From positions 1-64,000 of the forward strand of contig CADDZJ010000002.1 in assembly GCA_902812415.1 (NCBI GenBank): 64,000 bases of DNA, read 5' to 3'. Positions 11,840-13,725 of the stretch are shown piece after piece; the first letter of the stretch is position 1; the number at the start of each line of letters is the position of its first letter. The notes under the pieces were generated by a model. It saw nothing but the letters and a program-made list of their open reading frames with translations. It did no database searches and had not been told where the DNA came from. Made by a program: the position numbers and the translations under genes. The DNA is from Acidobacteriota bacterium (GTDB lineage Bacteria > Acidobacteriota > Terriglobia > UBA7540).

Positions 11840-12075
11840 GGATGCGCAAAACTAGCATTGTATCTTGTTTTCTCAAAAACAAAGGTAGTCAGCGAAACAT
11901 ATGGGACTTCACAGACCCACACAAGGCTTCTGTGCGCAGTCGCTCGCTTCCCACGCCCCTACCTATAGTCTGTTTGAAACAAGAACGCTCTCCAACGCAT
12001 CTGAAATATAATAGTGCTGAATCTATGCGTTGAAGTTGTTCGTGGAAGCCTACAAATTCAAAGCGAGGAAAGATC

Positions 12076-12753
12076 ATGTCTTTGCTGAGGGAAATCGACT
12101 TGGCCGAAATCCGCGAAAGGTTGCGGGAAATGGCAAACCCGGTGAAATTAGTCCATTTCACGCAGGAACTCAACTTGGAATACGGCCGCGAAGCTCGCAT
12201 GTTGCTCGAAGAACTCTCCGGAACCTCTGACAAGCTGTCACTCGAAGTCCATAATTTTCTGCTTGAGAAGGAGAAGGTTGCCGAATATGACATCGACAAG
12301 GTTCCGGCCACTATTATTCGCAACGGCAAAGACTACGGCGTTCGATTCTACGGATTGCCCGCAGGGTATGAATTCTCCACCCTGCTCGACGCTATTCTCC
12401 ACATCTCAAAAAATGATTCCGGACTGAAGCCCGAAACGAAGGAAAAACTTACCCGCATCAACCAGCCGCTTCACCTGGAAGTATTTGTAACGCCGACTTG
12501 ACCCCACTGCCCCCAGGCCGTGCGTCTGGCTCACTCTTTCGCAATCGAGAATGATTGGATTAAAGCGGATTGTATCGAAGCCACCGAGTTCCCTGACGCT
12601 GTTGCGCAACATCGAGTTTACGCGGTCCCAAAAACCGTTATTAATGGAAGTTCTTACATCGAAGGGGCTCTCCCGGAAGAATTCTTTCTCGATGGCATTC
12701 TCAAGGAGTTAGGCGTCGATCCTGAAAAAGATGCACAGGACTCACCTGCATAA
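12076..12753 (+). CDS. Candidate selenoprotein: protein disulfide oxidoreductase-like double thioredoxin-fold protein (UxxC)
   Basis: Read through the TGA at 12499-12501, the frame gives one 225-residue protein, the length of archaeal/bacterial PDO proteins with two thioredoxin folds. The C-terminal fold reads VFVTPT-U142-P-H-C145-PQAV, where PDOs have VFVTPTCPYCPxAV. UGA therefore replaces the nucleophilic first Cys. The cis-proline loop AVPKTVIN and the fold's last helix follow. The N-terminal fold keeps FTQELNLEYGREARMLLEEL, but its CxxC is lost (Leu and Gly at the Cys positions). Redox activity would rest only on the U-x-x-C site. A TATAAT box lies at 12007-12012. The 84 codons after UGA are open and conserved in type, which argues against random nonsense. 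Confidence 0.82.
12499..12529 (+). promoter_or_regulatory. UGA codon plus candidate bacterial SECIS hairpin (PDO-like gene)
   Basis: After the TGA at 12499-12501, CCAGGC (12513-12518) pairs with GTCTGG (12524-12529), six pairs with one G-U, around the loop CGTGC (12519-12523). The loop begins 17 bases after the UGA and has G as its second base. Both features are within the usual bacterial SECIS limits. The stem is weaker than that of the CMD-family gene, so this call leans on the protein motif. Confidence 0.6.
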
Positions 12754-12862: not shown

Positions 12863-13378
12863 TCAATACCGCAAGACCGTGTGGATGTCATACTGCGCGA
12901 GCTTCTCTCTCCCCTTCAGGAATTCCAATTCAATCAGGAATCCCAACCCCGCCACGCGCGCGTTGACTTGTTCCACAAGCCTTGCGACGGCGGACGCAGT
13001 TCCTCCCGTGGCAAGCAAATCGTCGATGATTAAGACGCTGTGCCCTTCCCCAATAGCATCCCGATGCATTTCAAGCGAATCTGTGCCGTACTCCAAATGG
13101 TAGCTGGCCCGCGCAACCTCCGCCGGAAGCTTTTTGGGCTTGCGAACCGGCACGAAACCCGCATTGAGCCGATAAGCCACCATCGGAGCAAAAATAAATC
13201 CACGCGCTTCAATCCCTATCACCCGATCAATCTTCCGACCCACGTAGTGGTTTGCAAGCGCATCGACAGCGCGATGGAGCCCGACGGGATCCTTCAGCAA
13301 AGTCGTAATATCATAAAAAAGAATTCCGGGCTTCGGGAAATCCGGCACTTCACGAATCAGACGCTTGAGGTCCTCCAC
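12863..13378 (-). CDS. apt: Adenine phosphoribosyltransferase
   Basis: Salvages adenine to AMP using PRPP in the cytoplasm. The protein has 171 residues, the normal length. The start [21 protein letters not shown] is typical of Apt. The PRPP-binding loop is [16 protein letters not shown], and [15 protein letters not shown] is also diagnostic. It converges on the PDO-like gene, with about 110 bases between their stops. acyP lies upstream on the same strand, about 70 bases away. Confidence 0.96.
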
Positions 13379-13449: not shown

Positions 13450-13725
13450 TCAGGTCTCAATGACAAAGCGGTTATAGTCACGGTCAATCGGCAGCTCGGT
13501 CTCTTCGACGCGGGTGACATAGGCGCCCCGCGGGCCTTCCTTCAGTCGTCGTTTGAACTCCGCGAGAGCGCCTTCACTTCCGATGGCGTAAGCTTCCACA
13601 TCTCCATCGGGCAGGTTTTTTACGTACCCGCGAATGGCCAGACGGCTTGCCTCCCGCTCGGCAAAGAAACGGTATCCCACCCCCTGCACCCTCCCTGAAA
13701 TGAGGTATCTTTTGGCGATCACCAT
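13450..13725 (-). CDS. acyP: Acylphosphatase
   Basis: A small cytoplasmic enzyme (91 residues) that hydrolyses acyl phosphates. The phosphate-binding loop [11 protein letters not shown] contains the catalytic Arg. [17 protein letters not shown] carries the second catalytic residue, Asn, of the usual GWVRNxxDG motif. It ends about 70 bases before apt on the same strand. A long inverted repeat separates it from plsC upstream. Confidence 0.95.

Follow-up and report, generated by a model that had tools for sequence, protein, structure and literature searches.

The locus considered here raises two questions: whether an in-frame UGA within a gene for a protein disulfide oxidoreductase (PDO) is read as selenocysteine (Sec) or as a stop, and how a type of enzyme with two redox sites came to retain only one of them. 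The gene lies in a 64,000-nucleotide stretch of DNA from an Acidobacteriota bacterium (hereafter the window), and its features are collected in Table 1. The explanation reached, a Sec-decoded, single-site PDO with a presumed carrier role, is as a whole very probably correct, and within it the insertion of Sec and the single-site anatomy, as deduced from sequence, are well supported and highly probable.

Table 1. Features of the PDO gene (positions in the window)
Feature	Position	Strand	Basis
PDO gene, 225 aa, selenocysteine-containing	12076..12753	+	Read-through translation, TIGR02187, phmmer, AlphaFold2
Shine-Dalgarno-like AGGA	12066..12069	+	6 nt 5' of the ATG; sequence, by eye
Former N-terminal active site LEYG, residues 34-37, replacing CxxC	12175..12186	+	Alignment to CQYC of 1A8L
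Ex-active-site loop HFTQELNLEYGRE, residues 27-39	12154..12192	+	Unusually conserved (alignment A1)
UGA codon 142, predicted selenocysteine	12499..12501	+	Sec/Cys pairs in homologues; Sec machinery in genome
C-terminal active site UPHC (UxxC)	12499..12510	+	Alignment A1; on CPYC of 1A8L
SECIS hairpin CCAGGC-CGTGC-GTCTGG, 17 nt	12513..12529	+	6 bp, 5-nt loop CGUGC, 11 nt after the UGA
Pro185, presumed cis-Pro, C-terminal thioredoxin fold (AVPK)	12628..12630	+	Invariant in A1

The gene and its product

A first-pass annotation of the sequence had carried the frame past the UGA and through AVPKTVIN to a protein of 225 residues, and each element of this is seen in the sequence: the open reading frame begins with an ATG, includes TGA in the context TPT-UGA-PHCPQAV, goes on to AVPKTVIN and residue 225, and ends with a TAA. 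The read-through product scores 256.4 bits over its whole length against TIGR02187 (PDO_seleno_TRX), for which the curated cut-off is 185, and phmmer matches it to the Pyrococcus enzymes 1A8L and 1J08 at E values of about 1e-50, the P. furiosus PDO (1A8L) being aligned with it end to end (E 2.6e-50). In this alignment U142 falls on the first cysteine of CPYC, and LEYG (residues 34-37) on CQYC, which bears out the earlier observation that leucine and glycine stand in for the N-terminal CxxC. Structure prediction, proposed in the same annotation as a check, gave an AlphaFold2 model with two thioredoxin folds (pLDDT 90.4) and the overall fold of a PDO, with Foldseek TM-scores of 0.89-0.91 to 1J08/1A8L (about 0.9 to 1A8L). 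The protein has the two fused folds and the length of about 225 residues that are typical of PDOs, as well as a C-terminal redox site (U142-P-H-C145); the N-terminal CxxC of the classical two-site enzymes is absent, and LEYG is found instead. The cis geometry of Pro185 is our assumption from what is generally known of thioredoxin folds.

A layout of two folds with one C-terminal redox pair is shared with the N-terminal domain of AhpF, and the gene might accordingly encode a detached copy of that domain and not a PDO. The predicted structure resembles AhpF N-terminal domains with TM-scores of 0.80-0.84, and the name given to the family in 2006 also refers to AhpF. Such an origin is nevertheless highly improbable, as the TIGR02187 score is above its cut-off whereas the AhpF model yields 91.7 bits against a cut-off of 502.9, the protein is a free-standing one of 225 residues and not a fused flavoprotein domain, and PDO structures match it better in both sequence and fold. 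Furthermore, its nearest neighbours in the tree retain both CxxC motifs, which argues that the single-site layout of the PDO arose separately from that of AhpF.

Conservation of the UGA codon

Orthologues were found in 30 of 39 genomes of the same family (28 full-length and 2 fragments). Codon 142 is TGA in 25 of the full-length orthologues and Cys in the other three (G001, G007 and G030); both fragments have TGA too, and a further TGA form in a genome (G161) of the same order but a different family brings the total across genus, family and order to 26 full-length and 2 partial sequences. Conservation of TGA at a single codon, with Cys at that codon in three relatives, argues against both a base error and a true stop, and an in-frame TGA that pairs with Cys in homologues and recurs in at least two sequences is what characterises a selenoprotein gene. 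Rates of substitution at the three codon positions are 0.21/0.16/0.55 after the UGA and 0.23/0.14/0.57 before it.

Were the UGA a true stop, the product would be a single-fold protein of 141 residues followed by a decaying frame. UGA is indeed an ordinary stop elsewhere, closing 14 of the 29 long open reading frames in the window, a count that also speaks against a genome-wide reassignment of the codon. Termination at codon 142 is nonetheless scarcely credible, given that codons downstream of the UGA evolve like those upstream, that the whole C-terminal fold is aligned in all relatives, that sister species have Cys at this place, and that the downstream part contains the sole remaining redox site. 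Elsewhere in the window, further frames that continue past a TGA and carry redox-like motifs were examined by eye and set aside as shadow frames or products of chance.

Sec machinery and other predicted selenoproteins of the genome

The genome encodes a tRNA-Sec with anticodon TCA (72.6 bits) together with SelA (586 bits), SelB (372 bits) and SelD (377 bits), the complete set by which a selenoprotein-producing bacterium is recognised. Furthermore, in a phylum-wide sample, SelB was present in all 30 genomes with the TGA form of the PDO versus 15 of the 42 that have a Cys PDO (Fisher p 2e-9). The gene for SelD (C37:3685-4617; L246) has an in-frame TGA of its own (AAGUAAKL), so that SelD is itself a predicted selenoprotein.

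At least three peroxiredoxin genes of the genome have TGA at the catalytic position, in the motifs TPGUT, TSGUT and TGGUT. The latter two genes are arranged in tandem (C11:195-1164; L256 and L257) and the first lies at C30:36700-37086 (L255), while a fourth match to the AhpC/TSA family, at C16:23875-24087, contains one TGA. The peroxiredoxin TGAs suggest an organism rich in selenoproteins.

A hairpin downstream of the UGA

The six-pair hairpin that had been reported 11 bases past the UGA was found again at 12513-12529. The apical loop, whose second base is G, begins 17 nt after the UGA, and G within a small apical loop is a known feature of bacterial SECIS elements (PMC1088965); a SECIS-like hairpin of this kind right after the UGA is a further mark of a selenoprotein gene. 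In the same geometry, a stem of at least five pairs is present in 62 of 65 Sec homologues versus 39 of 98 Cys homologues, and 86% of cells are paired in the Sec genes of the clade, compared with 49% in all Cys homologues. A hairpin score that takes the better of two registers splits Sec from Cys homologues (p 2e-11), and synonymous shuffling reveals a modest difference in folding energy (mean z -0.66 for Sec versus -0.20 for Cys homologues, p 0.001) that is not seen in a control region, but these tests treat kin sequences as independent, so that the p-values overstate the evidence. For the gene of the window alone, synonymous shuffling gave no signal (z 0.2), and an Rfam search at relaxed threshold returned no match in 12400-12650.

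Covariance in the hairpin, which the first-pass annotation had put forward as a check, was found in part: compensatory pair changes occur in two other Sec clades, and no two-sided compensatory change was seen within the window's own clade, because the amino acids underlying the hairpin barely vary there. The three Cys replacements provide, on a small scale, a natural gradation of SECIS loss, the hairpin being intact in L041 (G030), weakened in L024 (G007) and gone in L042 (G001).

Read-through of the UGA by a near-cognate tRNA would place Trp, Cys or Gly at residue 142. Such events are possible in bacteria at a low rate, and nothing specific points to one here; the complete Sec machinery, the strict co-occurrence of the TGA form with SelB, the enrichment of the SECIS-like hairpin in the TGA form, and the pairing of the codon only with Cys in homologues leave this reading with very little probability. 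The Sec insertion first proposed from the bare sequence is instead supported by the Sec/Cys pairs at residue 142 that an alignment of Acidobacteriota relatives brought out, by the machinery and by the hairpin, and the objections anticipated at that time have lapsed: the homologues continue beyond this codon, its conservation excludes a base error, and the genome carries the Sec machinery. That a soil Acidobacteriota bacterium decodes the in-frame UGA of a two-domain PDO as Sec is, from these comparisons, strongly supported.

Loss of the N-terminal redox site

Classified by the state of the C-terminal and N-terminal sites, respectively, 163 homologues comprise 91 with Cys/CxxC, 27 with Sec/CxxC, 38 with Sec and a lost N-terminal site, and 7 with Cys and a lost N-terminal site; among all of them, the only redox-motif position at which Sec is found is the first one of the C-terminal site. 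The tree requires a minimum of 13 changes between Sec and Cys, and the N-terminal CxxC must have been lost at least 6 times. Because the nearest outgroups of the window's clade (G273, G276, G547, G342 and G425) combine Sec with an intact N-terminal CxxC, the likely order of events is that Sec was gained first and the N-terminal pair lost later, with several branches in this part of the tree having low support. The single redox site and its derivation from a two-site PDO, both claimed in the first-pass annotation, are supported, LEYG lying on CQYC and the outgroups keeping CxxC.

The N-terminal site was also lost in f36 (GSESG) and in f51 and f97 (DPES), which are mostly Sec forms, and in three Cys lineages. 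Cys-only PDOs that lie outside the Sec clades and lack the N-terminal CxxC are L163 (G305), L132 (G534) and the second copy of L235. In raw counts the association is strong, the N-terminal site being lost in 38 of 65 Sec versus 7 of 98 Cys homologues, but a dependence of loss on Sec was not significant in tests that take kinship into account (independent pairs; Pagel-type likelihood, p 0.32 for the loss rate and 0.72 for the full model), and Sec as the cause of N-terminal loss was dropped. In two genomes the single-site form is accompanied by another, more distantly related Sec-PDO that has kept its N-terminal CxxC (G021:C68, L077; G034:C135, L078), an arrangement consistent with a division of labour between the two copies.

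All 28 rows of the family in alignment A1 share the N-terminal pattern N-[LV]-x-[YF]-G, and within the clade the loop at residues 27-39 ranks 6th in conservation among 199 windows of 13 residues. Such high conservation of an ex-active-site loop fits a retained structural or docking role better than it fits decay, and from the alignment the loop looks to have been repurposed.

Proposed mechanism and partners

In the course of events suggested by the tree, an ancestral PDO with CxxC at both sites would have acquired Sec at the C-terminal site and then lost the N-terminal pair, and a few relatives would later have gone back to Cys without regaining that pair. In the present protein, SelB and tRNA-Sec would decode UGA 142 as directed by the hairpin 12-28 nt downstream, and U142-P-H-C145 is the sole redox site, with Leu34 and Gly37 in place of the N-terminal cysteines. 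By analogy with the chemistry of PDOs and AhpF, an NADPH-dependent thioredoxin reductase, for which the genome has one strong match at C1:135876-136775, would reduce the selenenylsulfide between U142 and C145, and the resulting selenolate would reduce protein disulfides or the oxidised active sites of peroxiredoxins, while the N-terminal fold would be a conserved half with a structural or docking function, like the N-terminal domain of AhpF. In Saccharolobus solfataricus, a relay of this kind leads from NTR via PDO to peroxiredoxin (PMC7278568), and in AhpF the same task falls to the N-terminal domain, in which two fused thioredoxin folds have a single Cys pair (PMC12288474).

No operon with a reductase or a peroxiredoxin was found, the conserved neighbours of the gene being convergent with it on the opposite strand. 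By eye, these neighbours are adenine phosphoribosyltransferase-like (12863-13378, minus strand) and acylphosphatase-like (13450-13725, minus strand), and both are kept in nearly all relatives, a case of synteny without an operon. With the PDO gene standing alone beside convergent genes, its partners are proposed from co-occurrence in the genome only, and a role as carrier from thioredoxin reductase to peroxiredoxins can be put forward tentatively, with somewhat less than an even chance of being right. The more specific proposal of a one-site selenium carrier with a docking N-terminal fold, passing electrons from thioredoxin reductase to the Sec peroxiredoxins in a selenium-to-selenium relay, is speculative and would at present have to be called rather unlikely.

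The N-terminal half might alternatively be degenerate, and the selenoprotein a general substitute for thioredoxin or Grx with no dedicated partner, a serious possibility although somewhat short of an even one. Replacements that vary by lineage (LEYG, GSESG and DPES), the lack of a statistical tie between loss and Sec, and the missing operon partner are all in line with degeneration, which is harder to reconcile with an ex-active-site loop that is among the most conserved stretches in the clade.

Comparison with known systems

The first-pass annotation had supposed a Sec-containing PDO to be undescribed, which is wrong at the family level. In its available text, the 2006 survey of bacterial selenoproteomes lists two such sequences as 'Homolog of AhpF, amino-terminal domain' (PMC1794560), two reviews record TIGR02187 with UxxC in the parts available (PMC9312934, PMC13188914), four Sec-PDO sequences appear in the accessible account of the Borrarchaeales (PMC11227280), and NCBIfam's own name for TIGR02187 is PDO_seleno_TRX. 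The Sec-PDOs of Carboxydothermus, Symbiobacterium and Borrarchaeales belong to the same HMM family and share the UxxC motif class; the clade of the window, set against these by their descriptions only, has lost the N-terminal CxxC. The available text of the Sec-PDO literature yielded no mention of Sec together with a lost N-terminal CxxC, and to that extent the single-site Sec-PDO appears to be an undescribed variant. A single contig scan gave no Sec form outside Acidobacteriota among the best 80 of 310 matches. Within this phylum Sec-PDOs are common, whereas the 2006 survey, in its available text, had them in only two genomes.

The phylum offers a natural series with known positions in the tree, from two-site Cys through two-site Sec and one-site Sec enzymes to one-site Cys revertants, which allows one to ask what an enzyme gains from selenocysteine; a direct assay could show whether a second dithiol site becomes dispensable once Sec is present.

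The PDOs of P. furiosus (1A8L), P. horikoshii (1J08), A. aeolicus (2YWM/2AYT) and A. pernix (2HLS) have the same length, folds and C-terminal site as the window protein, with which the Pyrococcus enzymes share 43-44% identity in structural alignment; compared with these archaeal and bacterial PDOs, the window protein has Sec for the first C-terminal Cys and LEYG for the N-terminal CxxC. Sec-containing thioredoxins and glutaredoxins (UxxC) are small single-fold proteins that share its thiol-disulfide chemistry, whereas the window protein has two fused folds. Like the window protein, the N-terminal domain of AhpF (1ZYN, 1HYU, 4O5Q) has a single redox pair in its two thioredoxin folds, and its role as an electron carrier is likely similar. 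Enterobacterial AhpF is a much weaker match in sequence (E 1e-12 to 1e-14) and, unlike it, the window protein is free-standing, has Sec in the redox pair and arrived at this layout independently. If the relay proposed above is true, the single-site layout of the AhpF N-terminal domain would have been reached a second time, by way of selenium.
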